The notes under the pieces are model-generated. The model was not told the DNA's origin, searched no databases, and saw only the letters and a program-made list of their open reading frames with translations. Shown piece after piece: positions 3,825-14,357 of a stretch of 20,453 bases of DNA. The DNA comes from a virus: positions 1-20,453 of the IMG/VR virus record IMGVR_UViG_3300025759_000908. One strand, written 5' to 3'. Both the position numbers and the translations under genes were made by a program. Positions within the stretch are counted from its first letter, which is position 1, and every line of letters begins with the position of its first letter.

Positions 3825-4029
3825 CTTCCCTAGCCCTTTCGTTTACCCATTGTTCCACTTCGCTCAGAACCCAACGCTTGGTCTGTCGCTGCTTGGGTTT
3901 CATCGGTCCAAGCATTATGGGCCGTGGAAATTGGCCCTGTTTCACCCACTTGTAGAGCGTTGAGGTCGATACTCCCAAAAGCTTTGCGACCTCGGACACC
4001 CTTAACAAACGGTTAGAAGGGGATGTCAT
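3811..4029 (-). CDS. AlpA/excisionase-type helix-turn-helix protein
   Basis: 72 residues. LLRVSEVAKLLGVSTSTLYKWVKQGQFPRPI at 8-38 is a typical MerR-like winged helix-turn-helix of AlpA and Xis-like proteins, followed by a basic stretch (KPKQRQTKRW) and the usual W..SEVEQWV closing helix. Such proteins bind DNA as transcription factors or recombination directionality factors. The start at 4029 has GGAG seven bases upstream and lies inside the end of the primase gene (17-base overlap); the end overlaps the helicase start. Its place in the middle of a replication operon, far from any integrase in this window, suggests regulation or an origin-related role rather than excision, but this is inference. 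Confidence 0.88.
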   Translation of the reverse strand: MTSPSNRLLRVSEVAKLLGVSTSTLYKWVKQGQFPRPIMLGPMKPKQRQTKRWVLSEVEQWVNERAREDDYE

Positions 4030-5542
4030 TTGGAATCTCCTTTACATCTAGTTCTACATCCGTTTCCTCGAACGCAGGCACACGCCATACACGCGCCGTT
4101 GTTCTCTTCCCGTCAGCCTTGCGATAGTTCAGGACATACTCGGCGTCCTTGCCCCCGTTCAGCTTCTTTAATGCTTCCGTAACCTCGGCTCTTGTGTACT
4201 GATTGAAGTTACGATTATGCAAATAATCCATGAGACCCGAGATCATGAACGAGGTAAACCCGCCCTCGGTCCACGGCTTTCCATGCGTTATTTCCTCTGC
4301 CTGCACAGCCCGTATCCTACTGGTGCAGTACATGCGTAGGTGATCTTTAAACTGGCCTGAGTAGGTCAGTTCTTCTGGCACCTCTATTCGTGTGGAGTTT
4401 GTCATGAGCGCAGAGATAAGCATCTGCCACCTTGCTGGACGCATGGTAGGAGGCATAACACTTAGCTGATCCATACATGCCCGTTGAAACAGCGTCTGGT
4501 TTTGTAACTGCTCCGTTGATAGCTGCACCCGCCGCCCTGTAACGTCCAAGAAGTGTAGCCTTGGCTCCGACAACATGGTCACAAGACCGCCTAGCTTGGG
4601 CGCATCCGGTACGTCATCACCCACACCGTACTTTCTGGTGCGGCATACGTCCGGATCACAGTAGCTTTTGATAGGCTCTTGCTTACAGGTGTAGAAATAA
4701 TCCTTCTTGCCCACCGATTTCTGCAGCGCAGATATCTCAGAGGCCGGAAGTGGAGAGGCCGTAAGGTTTCGGTTCATCTCTTCTAGTTTCTCAACCCAAT
4801 CATCCGCCCACTTCTTACGGCAGTACACGCCACAGTTGAACAGCGTTGAGTTTCTATCACTTGAGATTGCACCCTGCGAACAGATGTGTTGTAGGCATGG
4901 CGGTCCATCAAAGAACTCTTCCTTGCCCCCAAGTCTTAAAGCTTCCAGATCATCTAGCGTGGTCTCGGACTTCTCCGCATGATCCAGAAAATCATCCAAC
5001 TCTAACGCCTCGACGTTGCTATCAAAGCAGTATCGAAGCGTCTCCTCCGCCTTGAAGTACGGTAGGTTAATAAAGTTACCCACGTCTCCCTGATCTGATA
5101 ATATTGTGTCCTGCTTGGGGAAAATCTCTGAACCTGAGAACCCCAAAGCAATAGACATCTCGGTCAGGAACTCTCGAACCACCGCCGCCGACTCTTTCTG
5201 ATTAAGAAACAGGTAGAGGTGCGCTCCACCAGACTTAGAACGGCAGTGAGACAACGGGAACTTTAACTGCGTAATCTTTTGCTGCAGTTGCTTGTGATCC
5301 AGATCGTAAACATCAATGTCAATGCACCCAAAACGGCAGGCATTCTCCTCGTCTATCGGTATGGACCCAACACCTAACGATCCATCCAAATGTTTTTGCA
5401 TAGCCTCCTCGGTCAGAGGATCACGCACAATCCAACTGTCGGCTTCCGTTTTACCGTTCCGGCCCACACGTTTTATTTTTGTAGAGCCATACGCTACCCG
5501 CGAACCAGCGAAGATAGCCAGCATCCTACTAGCTTGTGTCAT
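4013..5542 (-). CDS. Archaeo-eukaryotic-type primase (TOTE/phage AEP family)
   Basis: 509 residues. The catalytic core has the acidic pair D75-x-D77 in GCIDIDVYD and the S104-x3-H108 motif in SKSGGAHLYLF, followed by EIFPKQ at 139-144 and GNFINLPYF at 155-163, as in AEP-superfamily primases. A middle domain has cysteines C216, C221, C286, C295 and C300 in GPPCLQHIC and YTCKQ..SYCDPDVCRTRKYG contexts, probably a metal or Fe-S site. The C-terminus ends in NDIPF, resembling the SSB C-terminal tail. Expected role is RNA or DNA primer synthesis for PolA. The start at 5542 has CAGGGA upstream. It lies between the SSB-like gene (70-base gap holding a C-rich/G-rich hairpin-prone stretch) and the AlpA-like gene. 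Confidence 0.9.
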   Translation of the reverse strand: MTQASRMLAIFAGSRVAYGSTKIKRVGRNGKTEADSWIVRDPLTEEAMQKHLDGSLGVGSIPIDEENACRFGCIDIDVYDLDHKQLQQKITQLKFPLSHCRSKSGGAHLYLFLNQKESAAVVREFLTEMSIALGFSGSEIFPKQDTILSDQGDVGNFINLPYFKAEETLRYCFDSNVEALELDDFLDHAEKSETTLDDLEALRLGGKEEFFDGPPCLQHICSQGAISSDRNSTLFNCGVYCRKKWADDWVEKLEEMNRNLTASPLPASEISALQKSVGKKDYFYTCKQEPIKSYCDPDVCRTRKYGVGDDVPDAPKLGGLVTMLSEPRLHFLDVTGRRVQLSTEQLQNQTLFQRACMDQLSVMPPTMRPARWQMLISALMTNSTRIEVPEELTYSGQFKDHLRMYCTSRIRAVQAEEITHGKPWTEGGFTSFMISGLMDYLHNRNFNQYTRAEVTEALKKLNGGKDAEYVLNYRKADGKRTTARVWRVPAFEETDVELDVKEIPNDIPF

Positions 5543-9080: not shown

Positions 9081-9224
9081 CTATTCTTCGTCAGAAAACT
9101 TATTAATAATTAACGATAACTGTTGCAGCATGGACCTCCGCTCTCGCACCGCGATCCTCCGAAGGATTTCCAAATCATCTGACCGAATTGTCACGGTCAC
9201 GTATTTCTTATCAGTCTTCTGCAA
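9081..9224 (-). CDS. Short ribbon-helix-helix (CopG/Arc-like) DNA-binding protein, TTG start
   Basis: 47 residues. The start is TTG at 9222-9224 with GGAG seven bases upstream; an in-frame TAG lies a little further upstream and there is no better start. The N-terminal part KKYVTVTIRSDDLEILRRIA (6-25) has the beta strand plus helix of ribbon-helix-helix repressors, and the second half (RERRSMLQQLSLIINKF) is the second helix with its capping Ser. The gene overlaps the end of the upstream gene by 14 bases, as elsewhere in this operon, and stops just before a T-rich stretch and the shared hairpin. Such proteins act as dimers that bind short repeated operators, so it is one candidate reader of the repeats in this window. 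Family assignment is by pattern only. Confidence 0.75.
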   Translation of the reverse strand: MQKTDKKYVTVTIRSDDLEILRRIAVRERRSMLQQLSLIINKFSDEE

Positions 9225-9792
9225 TAGTCTTCTCCAGTTCTAGAACTTCTTTCGACGGTGGAAAGAAAGCCCCAACGTCTATCGACCACCGAATGAACGA
9301 ACCCCTAGATGAAAGCCCCGGACGTTGGTGCGTGATGTTCTTAACAAGCTTACCCTGAGCAAACAATCTATGTAGTGAATTACTTACCGTCTGACTGTCT
9401 AACTCCAACTCATAGGCCAGTTCTCCACACGACCATGCATCGTCCTGAACGTTCTCGTGAGTATCGCCCATTACATCCAACACCAAACGATCTACCTCGT
9501 CCGGTGTGGGAACCTTTTTCACAGATGCTTGCACAGGGATCGGCTCCGCCGTTGAACCGTTCATAGGCTTAACACCCACGGCTCTCCAAGGGGTTCTATC
9601 TCTCTTGTCCGGAGCGTTTGCCACAACAACATACGTCTCCATCAACCCCTCTTCCACCCCATGCTTTCGCACAAAGATCGGGTCAAAGAAAACGCTCTCT
9701 CCACCCGTTGTTACCCCAAAACCGTGGCCCTGTGGAAAGATGTTTTCTACATAAACTTCGTGACTTTGTATTAATCCAGTTAGTTGCTGCAT
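9211..9792 (-). CDS. Two-domain protein: possible OB/cold-shock-like N-terminus and winged-helix C-terminus
   Basis: 193 residues. Residues about 12-75 (VYVENIFPQGHGFGVTTGGE, then SVFFDP) look like a small beta-barrel of cold-shock or S1 type, with the aromatic-rich GFGV/VFF pattern. A linker rich in P and V follows. Residues about 95-170 look like a winged helix (DAWSCGELAYELELDSQTVSNSLHRLFAQGKLVKN). This suggests a nucleic-acid-binding regulator. A perfect AGGAGG precedes the ATG at 9792. Both domain readings are by eye and moderate in certainty; that this is a real gene is secure. Confidence 0.8.
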   Translation of the reverse strand: MQQLTGLIQSHEVYVENIFPQGHGFGVTTGGESVFFDPIFVRKHGVEEGLMETYVVVANAPDKRDRTPWRAVGVKPMNGSTAEPIPVQASVKKVPTPDEVDRLVLDVMGDTHENVQDDAWSCGELAYELELDSQTVSNSLHRLFAQGKLVKNITHQRPGLSSRGSFIRWSIDVGAFFPPSKEVLELEKTIAED

Positions 9793-11169: not shown

Positions 11170-11345
11170 TCCCATTCCTTCCTGTCCTCCTCCTGCTCAT
11201 AGCCGCGATAGTAATCCGCAACCTGCTCATCGGTCATGTCAGTGATCCTCGCACCCTTAACAATGCCCTCCGGATACCAATGCGGGTCCGGACGCCGCCT
11301 GTAATAAGCGTCCGCACTGCCACGATCATACGGTGACTTTATCAT
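11166..11345 (-). CDS. Small RMF-like basic/aromatic phage protein
   Basis: 59 residues from the ATG at 11345, which has GGAGG seven bases upstream and overlaps the preceding stop as ATGA; a start 16 codons earlier lacks this. SPYDRGSADAYYRRRPDPHWY at 4-24 and YYRGYEQEED near the end form two RG/YY-type repeats reminiscent of ribosome modulation factor, with the same order (RG, aromatic pair, P-H/Y, later RG-aromatic-E). Short proteins of this kind are common in phages. Ribosome binding is a suggestion only. Confidence 0.65.
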   Translation of the reverse strand: MIKSPYDRGSADAYYRRRPDPHWYPEGIVKGARITDMTDEQVADYYRGYEQEEDRKEWE

Positions 11346-11716
11346 GCGCTGACCTCCAACCCATGCTTCCTCGCTATGCGCTCCAATGCCCAAACAATCT
11401 GATCAGACCAATCCTCGCACCGCGAACCTTGGTCATGCGCGTGCTGCAAATCAGACAACAAATCTAACTGCTTGTCCTCTAAACAATCCTGACCCCACGA
11501 TAAGGCAACCGCCTCCCTCGCCCTCATGTTAGAGCCGTCTATTCCACCGCCCTCCATGTCAGTGAAATAATGCTCGTCTGATATGAATACGCCAACCGCG
11601 CACATCGCACCGTCCTCACCACGGTACATGCAACTATCCCCCATATCATCTAACGATGGACCGTCCATGCTTCTTAAATGAGCCGATGCCTTGTTGAATA
11701 TCTCTTGCTGCTTCAT
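11342..11716 (-). CDS. Small phage protein with CMYR...CAVG motif
   Basis: 124 residues. Helical N-terminus (KQQEIFNKASAHLRSM), then the motif CMYRGEDGAMCAVGVFISDEHY at about 29-50, which I recall from many phage hypothetical proteins without known function, then a helical C-terminus with DLLSDLQHAHDQG. AGGAGAAG precedes the ATG at 11716. The two cysteines ten residues apart may matter structurally. Confidence 0.75.
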   Translation of the reverse strand: MKQQEIFNKASAHLRSMDGPSLDDMGDSCMYRGEDGAMCAVGVFISDEHYFTDMEGGGIDGSNMRAREAVALSWGQDCLEDKQLDLLSDLQHAHDQGSRCEDWSDQIVWALERIARKHGLEVSA

Positions 11717-11955
11717 GTCTCTTCTCCTGAACCGTTTTGTGGGTAACGTAATATGAAATTATCAACGTGAAACTTAACCATCTTGCGAGTGTTATGAACA
11801 AACCGCTTGCCGCTTCCTCGCTGAGTAGCTTGCCAATGACCGTGGCAGTTTTTCCACGGCTTGTTGACAAACCGAAACCCACGGTAATCATATTCAGGCA
11901 AATCAAGCTCTCGCCCCAGACTGTTATGAGTGATCTTTTTGAATTTATACGTCAT
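11713..11955 (-). CDS. Small basic protein of unknown function
   Basis: 80 residues, basic, with YDYRGFRFVNKPWKNCHGHWQAT at 23-45, probably a small beta-sheet with aromatic residues, and KRFVHNTRKMVKFHVDNFILRYP later. Overlaps the next gene by four bases (ATGA). AAGGAG precedes the ATG at 11955. No family recognised; a nucleic-acid-binding role would fit the charge but is not shown. Confidence 0.7.
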   Translation of the reverse strand: MTYKFKKITHNSLGRELDLPEYDYRGFRFVNKPWKNCHGHWQATQRGSGKRFVHNTRKMVKFHVDNFILRYPQNGSGEET

Positions 11956-12189: not shown

Positions 12190-13074
12190 TCAGGCCGCTT
12201 GCGCGACCTGAGCATTAGATGATTGCAAAATGTACTCAGATGCCTTCTGAGCGGCGGACGTGGCCTTGATGATGGCGTTGGGATGCTCACCCAACATGCG
12301 TATCCAAGAGTTCAAATATTTGGCATGGTCCGGAGCCGGATCAACATCAACCTTACTAATGATCGACAACATAACCGCGCCCAATTCAGCAACCAACTCC
12401 TCCATCGCATACTTGGCATCGCCAAACCGATTGCCAAACTCACGATCCAAGCGAGACTTATGACCCGTCCAATGAACCAACTCATGAAACGCCGTGCCAT
12501 AATACCCACTCGCGTCCTTGAATTGTGAACGCAATGGAACCGTCACACTGTCAGACCCGCGATTGTAATAAGCACGATTGCCCTGAGTGTGATGAAACGT
12601 GGCACCACATGCCTCTATCAAGGCATCAGCATCAACAGCGTCCTCCCAAGCCTGATCCTCCGGAGCTTGGTCCTTGATCCAATCACCGTTCCAACCCTCA
12701 ACCTGATCAGCGTTAAACACATAAAATGCCTTCAACATTGGAACCGTCTTGTCCTCGTCGGTCTTCTTGTCCTTGATCTTAATCGGACTGTAAAAAACAA
12801 CAGGAATGCCAGACGATCCCTTCTTGACCTTGGCACCCAATGACTTCCACTGCTTAAACGTGCCAAAGACCGGAGAGCTATAACCTTGCAACGCGATCAC
12901 AAGGCCAAGGTTCATGCGATTGATCCCAGTGTAATGACGCTTCTTGGCACTCAACGGCTCACCCGTTGCACCAACCGCCTTGCGCCACGGCTTGGCCCAA
13001 TCCGCACCGTGCTCCTTCATCATGCCAACAACATTGTCAGCGATATTCTTCATTAGTTCTTGCTGCTTGCTCAT
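12190..13074 (-). CDS. ardC: ArdC-like antirestriction protein with zincin metallopeptidase domain
   Basis: 294 residues. The N-terminal part (about 5-120; WAKPWRKAVGATGEPLSAKK, YTGINRMNL, YSSPVFGTFKQWKSLGAKVKKGSSG) is the ssDNA-binding ArdC-N domain (DUF1738). The C-terminal part has the metal-binding H197-E198-x2-H201 in FHELVHWTGHKSRLDR and the EELVAELGA helix at 225-233 that carries the third ligand. ArdC of plasmid R388 protects incoming DNA from type I and II restriction, and related phage and conjugative proteins are thought to do the same at entry. It is the promoter-proximal gene of the leftward 13.1-9.1 kb operon, with GGAGG before the ATG at 13074, so it would be made early, consistent with defence against host restriction. 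Confidence 0.93.
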   Translation of the reverse strand: MSKQQELMKNIADNVVGMMKEHGADWAKPWRKAVGATGEPLSAKKRHYTGINRMNLGLVIALQGYSSPVFGTFKQWKSLGAKVKKGSSGIPVVFYSPIKIKDKKTDEDKTVPMLKAFYVFNADQVEGWNGDWIKDQAPEDQAWEDAVDADALIEACGATFHHTQGNRAYYNRGSDSVTVPLRSQFKDASGYYGTAFHELVHWTGHKSRLDREFGNRFGDAKYAMEELVAELGAVMLSIISKVDVDPAPDHAKYLNSWIRMLGEHPNAIIKATSAAQKASEYILQSSNAQVAQAA

Positions 13075-13342
13075 CTTAAACCTCCATAAATGATGATACC
13101 CTACTCATATGGCATGGTACGTTACTGATTACAAGAGTACATAAAGACCTTTTTCCAGATATTTTAAAAAAAAAAAAAAAACTAAAAAAATCCTGTAATC
13201 TTTGTAATCTTGTAATCACCCTAACAATTATCCTTTTAGAACATGGACTAAGCCAGCCCAGAGTGATTACAAGGTGATTACAATGATTACAAAACCCCTA
13301 GAAATAGTCCTTAATTGTGACACGGTACTCGCCCTCCGGTTG

Positions 13343-13369
13343 CGCCCGACTACTTTTAGTTGGCGTTTT
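13343..13369 (+). terminator. Hairpin with short T-run between the two rightward repeat triplets
   Basis: CGCCCGACTA at 13343-13352 pairs with TAGTTGGCG at 13357-13365 (one bulge, one G-T pair, four-base loop), followed by TTTTC. It resembles a weak intrinsic terminator that would insulate the gene at 13424 from readthrough, or a structure within an origin. Confidence 0.4.
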
Positions 13370-13389
13370 CTGGTGAAATTGATTACAAT
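13360..13389 (+). promoter_or_regulatory. Candidate promoter for the terS-like operon overlapping GATTACA
   Basis: TTGGCG at 13360-13365 and TACAAT at 13384-13389 are 18 bases apart. The -10 box is formed by the 3' half of one GATTACA copy plus the following bases, so a protein bound to the repeat would block it. The predicted start is near 13396, and AGGGAG precedes the ATG at 13424. Confidence 0.45.
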
Positions 13390-13423
13390 GATTACAAACT
13401 GATTACACCGAAAAGGGAGCAAA

Positions 13424-13981
13424 ATGGCACAAGAAACGGGCAAACATCGCCCGTGTTTGACAACACGGCAGGAGACATTTGCCAAGCATGTTGCAGAAGG
13501 CATCTATACTAATACGAGCAGCGCAAGAATGGCTGGGTACTCGCACCGTCTGTCGGGGAAGCAAGCGGCGGTGTTGTTAAACGGTCGGGATTATCCGCAT
13601 GTTGTGGAGCGTGTGAAGGAACTTAGGGAGGAAAGAGCACGGCGTTACGGCGTCACCATCATGGGTCAGCTTGAACGGCTCTCAAAGCTATCTCGTGGGG
13701 CAGAAGAGGATGGTCAATATTCTGCAGCAATCAACGCTGAAAAAATTCGGTCAGCTTTGGGTGGCTTGACGGTGGACCGGAGGGAGAATGTTAACACAAT
13801 AGATCAACTATCACGGGATGAAATTGTTGGTCGGCTCACTGATCTGCAGAAAAAGTACCCGCAAGCCTTCGATATAGAAGCTGAATACAAGGATGTTACC
13901 GATGAGCAAGGGACCGGAGGCGAACTTTTGGAATACAATGAGGAAATCACTGCCGAAAAAGACGTTCGCAACTCGGATTGA
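13424..13981 (+). CDS. Terminase small subunit-like protein
   Basis: 185 residues. The N-terminus CLTTRQETFAKHVAEGIYTNTSSARMAGYS (11-40) is the typical start of Terminase_2-type small subunits, with a helix-turn-helix that recognises DNA, followed by VVERVKELREERARRYGVTIMGQLERLSKLSRGAEEDGQYSAAINAEK, the helical oligomerisation region common in this family. The acidic tail (EEITAEKDVRNSD) fits a large-subunit contact. TerS proteins bind the packaging start site. No large terminase gene follows; a nuclease gene does, which is unusual. It begins just after a GATTACA triplet. A different DNA-binding role is possible. Confidence 0.65.
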   Translation: MAQETGKHRPCLTTRQETFAKHVAEGIYTNTSSARMAGYSHRLSGKQAAVLLNGRDYPHVVERVKELREERARRYGVTIMGQLERLSKLSRGAEEDGQYSAAINAEKIRSALGGLTVDRRENVNTIDQLSRDEIVGRLTDLQKKYPQAFDIEAEYKDVTDEQGTGGELLEYNEEITAEKDVRNSD

Positions 13982-14357
13982 GAACAAGCATGGCGGGGGA
14001 ATACCCGATGTACATGTAATCTGGAATGGAATACCCTTTTGGGTAGAGTTAAAAGTAGCCTCCGGTACACGAATAAAACTAACTCCCAATCAAGTTGCGT
14101 GGAATGCAGCATATTGGGCGCGTGGCGGTCTGAATTTCATCTTGGTCAAAGACCCCGTTAGCAAGTTGCTTCTTTTATTTGACGGTTGTCATGGGTCCGA
14201 GGCCCTTGATGCAGGCATCAAGAGCGGTTGCTGCCGCCGGTACGGTACTTTTGATGAATTATTTTCGGCTCTTCGACCTCGGATGGAGGGTCATTTGCTG
14301 AAATCTTGCGGCTTCCAACCAAGTCTTGCGGCTTCCGGCGCGGAATCCGCTTACTAA
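13902..14357 (+). CDS. VRR-NUC family nuclease
   Basis: 151 residues from the ATG at 13902 (AAGGA eight bases upstream; an ATG three codons earlier has no usable site). The core shows E27 in RIEN, D36 in GGGIPDV, the ExK pair E49-K51 in FWVELK and Q64 in LTPNQVAW, the PD-(D/E)xK pattern of stand-alone VRR-NUC proteins of phages, which cut branched or flap DNA. The gene overlaps the TerS-like gene by 80 bases in another frame, unusually long for this genome. The C-terminal 20 residues are encoded partly by a 13-base direct repeat (14304 and 14324) and may be a recent extension. Possible roles are resolving replication or packaging intermediates. Confidence 0.88.
   Translation: MSKGPEANFWNTMRKSLPKKTFATRIENKHGGGIPDVHVIWNGIPFWVELKVASGTRIKLTPNQVAWNAAYWARGGLNFILVKDPVSKLLLLFDGCHGSEALDAGIKSGCCRRYGTFDELFSALRPRMEGHLLKSCGFQPSLAASGAESAY

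Follow-up and report, generated by a model that had tools for sequence, protein, structure and literature searches.

The locus and its repeat array

The window, by which we mean the complete stretch of DNA analysed here, is a 20,453-base record in a virus collection. It contains a gene-free region flanked by two divergent genes: an ArdC-like gene on the minus strand (12190-13074; ArdcN, 7e-28; MPTase-PolyVal, 1e-42) and a TerS-like gene on the plus strand (13424-13981), which matched phrog_51 at 2e-10 and Terminase_2 at 9e-5, the latter match falling below the cutoff of that family. TerS is followed by a VRR-Nuc-like nuclease gene (13893-14357, plus strand; phrog_2165, 4e-17). The replication genes of the window include those for a family A polymerase, helicases of the UvrD and SNF2 types, a primase of the AEP-TOTE type (4013-5542, minus strand) and Pam3-phage-like proteins. 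DNA comparison with INPHARED revealed no close phage. In a near-identical relative, 40,423 bases long, the layout is that of a tailed phage: the replication genes lie to one side of the gene-free region, and TerS, the terminase large subunit, the portal and further structural genes lie across from them (the large subunit and portal were recognised by eye from their N-termini).

The gene-free region holds ten exact copies of GATTACA between 13127 and 13407, seven on the plus strand and three on the minus strand. A single forward copy (13127-13133), which occupies the same place in relatives, is followed by a reverse triplet (13194-13217, minus strand; starts at 13194, 13203 and 13211) and by two forward triplets on the plus strand, at 13265-13291 (starts at 13265, 13276 and 13285) and 13381-13407 (starts at 13381, 13390 and 13401). 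The last of these adjoins TerS and is extra in the lineage of the window compared with many relatives. Start-to-start steps inside the three triplets are 9 and 8, 11 and 9, and 9 and 11 bases. The first copy, with its leading T added, reads TGATTACA, and this longer word is shared by eight of the ten copies. The initial annotation had described ten copies in these orientations, most of them grouped as triplets 8-11 bases apart in a gene-free divergent region, and the recounted positions and the gene map confirm it with one small correction: the start at 13126 applies only if the leading T is included.

Such an arrangement is not a product of chance, as had also been claimed. GATTACA occurs 15 times in the whole window, against 2.2 occurrences expected from dinucleotide shuffles, and for the 282-bp stretch of the array, in which 0.03 copies are expected, a Poisson estimate gives a probability of about 2e-22 for ten or more. 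The region has the sequence attributes of an iteron-type origin, namely multiple short direct repeats in non-coding DNA and an adjoining A/T-rich stretch (13160-13191), which includes a run of 16 A residues (13166-13181) and may be easily melted. An A/T tract is also kept at the place of the A16 run in other lineages. Two contigs of the same metagenome (L122 and L064) end in or beside the A16 tract, and many long contigs with a primase have no TerS; arrays may often break assemblies.

Conservation of position and respelling of the words

Relatives keep the array in place, in every case immediately upstream of the TerS-like gene. The check suggested initially, conservation at the same location in related phages, thus shows an array that is kept in position but respelled: the 8-bp word varies by lineage (TGATTACA, TGAGTACA, TGTTTACA, TGGATACA and others). 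A repeated word precedes TerS in most of the loci compared, which were 80 TerS loci and five more from genome assemblies; the words comprise TGATTACA, TGAGTACA, TGTTTACA, TGAGAACA, TGAGGACA, TGTTGACA, TGATGACA, TGGGTACA, TCGTGACA, TCGTAACA and others. All ten sites are kept in close relatives, and most of them in a sister clade, in which about half are spelled GAGTACA. Contigs that appear otherwise unrelated and carry arrays have a TerS homologue downstream (55-67% identical), followed in most cases by the VRR-Nuc gene, a recurring neighbour, while the gene on the opposite side changes. ArdC and other neighbouring genes, which are not conserved at the array, were rejected as partners of the word, and distant ArdC relatives with a different gene upstream are without the array.

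Where loci are near-identical, the spacers hardly vary and it is mainly the words that differ, all of them at once. Gene conversion alone was rejected as the cause of this pattern, as the words switch across the whole array while the spacers between copies stay put. Within the group of the window there is one array per genome.

Several further observations were made during these searches. A triple GATTACA was found in 119 contigs, most of which resemble ordinary tandem or coding repeats rather than two-strand arrays. Two contigs have TGATTACA arrays (L038, 22-113; L048, 32-181) with no TerS-like gene visible by eye in the part examined, and may represent other phages or satellites sharing this word. 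A cluster of CTAGGAAA repeats lies upstream of the terminase small subunit gene of Pelagibacter phage HTVC023P (L235). The reading frames of two TerS homologues each have one internal stop codon, TGA in G018 (39887-40405) and TAG in G045 (11259-11813). A search of 26 further long contigs detected TerS in only 4 of them, and so yielded few new pairs.

TerS and other candidate readers of the words

The constant position of the array just upstream of TerS makes this protein an obvious candidate for the reader of the words. The geometry of the array recalls lambda cosB, with its R sites upstream of Nu1, and TerS was the only candidate noticed in the 40-kb relative. A packaging site of the pac or cosB kind, bound by TerS, would account for these features. 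The site does not, however, track its cognate TerS: in several sets of loci a TerS identical over the compared region stands beside different words, and the 198-aa proteins of G011 and G012, whose words differ, are 100% identical. No column of the TerS alignment exceeds 0.47 normalised mutual information (MI) with the word. TerS was thus rejected as the reader; terminase-binding repeats, suggested initially, are not supported as the source of specificity, and we consider a packaging site very improbable. Binding of TerS to this DNA, with no influence on how the words are spelled, may nevertheless occur.

Three other small proteins of the DNA-binding type were considered as phage regulators that might bind the words: the AlpA-like protein, the RHH-type protein and an OB/winged-helix protein (9211-9792). 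In the last of these the N-terminal half is conserved and the winged-helix tail is swapped between G011 and G012, as might be expected of a reader of their different words. Its C-terminal domain is, however, missing in G009 and G010, and neither in this protein nor in AlpA does any column rise above 0.57 normalised MI. AlpA shows no covariation with the word, and both it and the RHH protein are identical in G011 and G012 in spite of the different words. The OB/winged-helix protein was rejected as the reader, and binding of the words by any of the three is strongly disfavoured and very improbable.

Promoters of T7-type RNA polymerases were also considered, prompted by the sequence ACACTATAGGG beside the iterons of some relatives, and were set aside; PF00940 gave no match in 9 relatives, a result that does not establish absence, as the control search was likewise without a match anywhere. 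In L222, L226 and L228 a single iteron-like word upstream of TerS is followed by CACTATAGGG, which resembles promoters of the T7/SP6 class.

Covariation of the primase tail with the word

Over the DNA that they share, the genomes G011 (TTGAGTCA) and G012 (TGTTTACA) have an identity of mostly 94-99%, and other small proteins besides TerS, AlpA and RHH are identical between them. The 14 differences between the two primases are concentrated at the C-terminal end, with 12 in the last 75 alignment columns. A similar concentration was seen for G009 (TGAGTACA) and L343 (TGAGAACA), with 11 of 16 differences in the same columns, whereas in a control pair sharing one word (L411 and L413) this applied to only 2 of 14.

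Covariation was examined in the 22 genomes with both an array and a full primase, with similar residues grouped for the calculation of normalised MI. Residue 472 (window numbering; Asn in the window, codon 4127-4129, minus strand) follows base 3 of the word without exception: the 13 genomes with A have Asn, the 3 with G have His and the 6 with T have Ala or Ser. Its normalised MI is 1.00, and the next of the 400 variable primase columns reaches 0.50. Over 12 conserved proteins with about 2,600 variable columns, no other column partitions perfectly with base 3, the best value in the 11 other proteins being 0.67, for the polymerase (17 genomes). Associations with bases 4 and 5 are only moderate. 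Residue 470 (Val in the window, codon 4133-4135, minus strand) is among the best columns for base 4, with Lys or Arg always accompanying G and His always accompanying T, and residue 482 (Thr, codon 4097-4099, minus strand) ranks first, but weakly, for base 5.

The words of G011 and L319 were aligned by hand after some primases had been seen. With an automatic word caller, forcing TGNNNACA, residue 472 was still first for base 3 (0.83 vs 0.49), although this caller fails on G011 and is ambiguous as to the orientation of the near-palindromic TTT/TAA words. A held-out test used two assembly contigs with G at base 3, each verified to carry array and primase together. His had been predicted beforehand and Arg was found at position 472; the literal prediction therefore failed, and the wider expectation that Asn, Ala and Ser would be absent was borne out. 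The Arg-G pairing is itself chemically apt. In a separate case, the Maricaulis-labelled MAG of L229 (G054), seven primase homologues lie on different contigs and probably belong to several phages.

The primase tail and the array might simply travel together, by descent or recombination, without any contact between them. Related genomes do share both tail and word, and the sample comprises 22 genomes. Against this, TerS and VRR lie nearer to the array and do not covary with it, whereas the primase does so at a distance of about 8 kb, and in its tail only. On a tree of the N-terminal part of the primase the TTT word group needs three or more changes along branches with good support, so that at least three switches were independent. 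The pairings also look chemically sensible: Asn commonly contacts A, His or Arg commonly contacts G and small side chains commonly face T, and Lys or Arg with G at base 4 is likewise sensible. We therefore regard linkage without contact as very unlikely; binding of the words by the primase tail is strongly indicated by the sequence comparisons. The initial suggestion of replication initiator iterons is thereby supported, through covariation with the C-terminal domain of the primase, although this protein was not among the readers then named.

The primase and its predicted wing

The primase belongs to the AEP-TOTE family (Pfam, 3.5e-16; 59.9 bits against a curated cutoff of 27) and matched phrog_21866, a primase family, at 3e-91. 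Foldseek matched its N-terminal half to the CAPP prim-pol (about 1e-11), and also to the S-2L PrimPol and RSF1010 RepB'. Apart from AEP-TOTE, only a weak PriCT_1 match was found in Pfam, and no helicase domain was detected; opening of the duplex would therefore need a partner.

AlphaFold2 models (pLDDT 82 for the whole primase, 76 for the tail alone) predict a winged-helix arrangement for the C-terminal domain (residues 394-490; 4073-4363, minus strand), which we propose to be DNA-binding. Of the covarying residues, 470 and 472 occupy alternate positions of the first strand of the predicted wing (468-474), and 482 lies on the partner strand. VIA-align produced only middling matches of the tail to winged-helix proteins (Z 5-7), TcpK and SCCmec Cch among them.

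Role of the array

We infer that the array is an iteron-type replication origin read by the phage's own AEP-TOTE primase, with hypervariable specificity, and assign this reading a probability of roughly 0.7. The array is taken as an origin because its proposed reader is a replication primase. In the mechanism envisaged, the C-terminal winged-helix domain would bind each 8-bp word through its beta-wing, with residue 472 reading base 3 and residue 470 probably reading base 4. Several primases might gather on the inverted triplets next to the A/T-rich stretch, at which the duplex would open and replication begin, aided by the phage helicases and the family A polymerase. Word and wing would change together under pressure for new specificity, the pressure plausibly being the avoidance of cross-talk with, or parasitism by, related phages or satellites.

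Base composition gives a mixed picture on this point. In eight of nine genomes the GC skew has a negative sign on the left of the array and a positive sign on its right, and a side effect of 0.062 (95% interval 0.050-0.076) remains after correction for gene strand. A scan for skew breakpoints was sharp at the array in G001 only; in other genomes the array ranked 3 of 40 (G002), 14 of 40 (G009), 9 of 51 (G011) and 13 of 49 (G003).

Word arrays are also present in cultured phages of Acinetobacter and Providencia with distant primases, those of the Acinetobacter phages being about 33-34% identical over the matched part. The words upstream of the Acinetobacter primase genes are CGGTTGC (in DMU1 and three others) and CGGTTCC or CGGTTAC in others. 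The tails of these primases vary at matching places, but in Bhz9 and Bhz20 the same wing accompanies a different commonest word, which makes the residue-base pattern less certain in these phages. In DMU1 (L527) clusters of CGGTTGC begin at 20963 and 43113, upstream of the primase and of TerS, that is, at the starts of both operons.

The last arrangement would also suit a bidirectional operator, another of the initial suggestions, through which the primase, or a complex containing it, would control divergent early and TerS operons, the origin being located elsewhere. The array of the window does sit between divergent operons, and promoter-like cores containing TATAG flank the triplets in relatives. 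The covarying protein is, however, a replication primase and no known regulator, only one array occurs per genome in the group of the window, and the sign of the skew changes near it. An operator in place of an origin thus seems unlikely, although the array may be an operator as well as an origin.

In a wider form of the origin reading, an AEP primase would act as an origin-specific initiator, with a simple, re-writable base code in its beta-wing, throughout a marine phage group that is widespread and has distant relatives among the phages of Acinetobacter and Providencia. Diversifying selection by competing phages, satellites or origin-targeting nucleases would have divided these phages into “incompatibility groups”. 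We give this wider proposal about an even chance. If it is true, the sequence of the primase tail would predict the origin word, and metagenome contigs could be sorted into groups of origin specificity. The paired changes in protein and DNA would provide a natural data set on the evolution of binding specificity, and the rapid, concerted respelling would point to an unseen conflict at the origins of marine phages.

Comparison with known systems

Winged-helix primase initiators and the covariation of initiators with iterons are both known already; their combination in phages appears to be new, in that the titles and abstracts surveyed, which cover the literature incompletely, included none describing such a pairing of primase tail and origin word. 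The alpha protein of phage P4, a Toprim primase, binds origin repeats by its own winged-helix domain (PMC4234260). The likeness lies in a primase with a winged-helix domain and in the origin repeats, the domain being predicted, the origin putative and binding deduced from covariation in the present case. The P4 protein joins a Toprim primase and a helicase in one chain, whereas ours is an AEP-TOTE primase of hypervariable specificity in which no helicase domain was detected, and it belongs to a tailed phage that encodes a polymerase of its own. The P4 alpha origin domain is absent among the fold matches listed for the tail, which says nothing either way. ORF904 of pRN1 is an AEP primase-helicase with a C-terminal winged helix (PMC4234260) and in this respect resembles the window's primase; its origin is a stem-loop without iterons, and no covarying set of words is described in that paper.

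A precedent for the proposed mode of reading is TcpK, a winged-helix protein which recognises 9-nt tandem repeats at the oriT of pCW3 by its wing in the major groove (PMC6137059). TcpK, one of the middling fold matches, shares with our model the reading of short tandem repeats by a beta-wing, but it is a conjugation relaxosome protein with a 9-nt box and no primase. Short iterons are likewise recognised by the C-terminal domains of the initiators SaPI Rep and SCCmec Cch2 (PMC7581432), and the C-terminus of Cch was a fold match of the same middling rank; those initiators are helicases and not primases.

A functional parallel is offered by RepA of the PLE satellites of Vibrio cholerae, whose DNA-binding domain covaries with the origin iterons, the nuclease Odn being the likely source of pressure (PMC8263062). 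As in PLE, the proposed DNA-binding domain of the putative initiator covaries with the iterons. The resemblance is functional only, as PLE is a satellite with a RepA_N domain (for which the primase gave no Pfam match with E as high as 1), semi-palindromic iterons of about 30 bp and swaps of whole domains, whereas the system described here involves 8-bp words and changes at the level of single residues in a phage primase. If our reading is true, the AEP-TOTE primase would join the initiators that choose their own origin, and would do so by the wing-based reading of bases.
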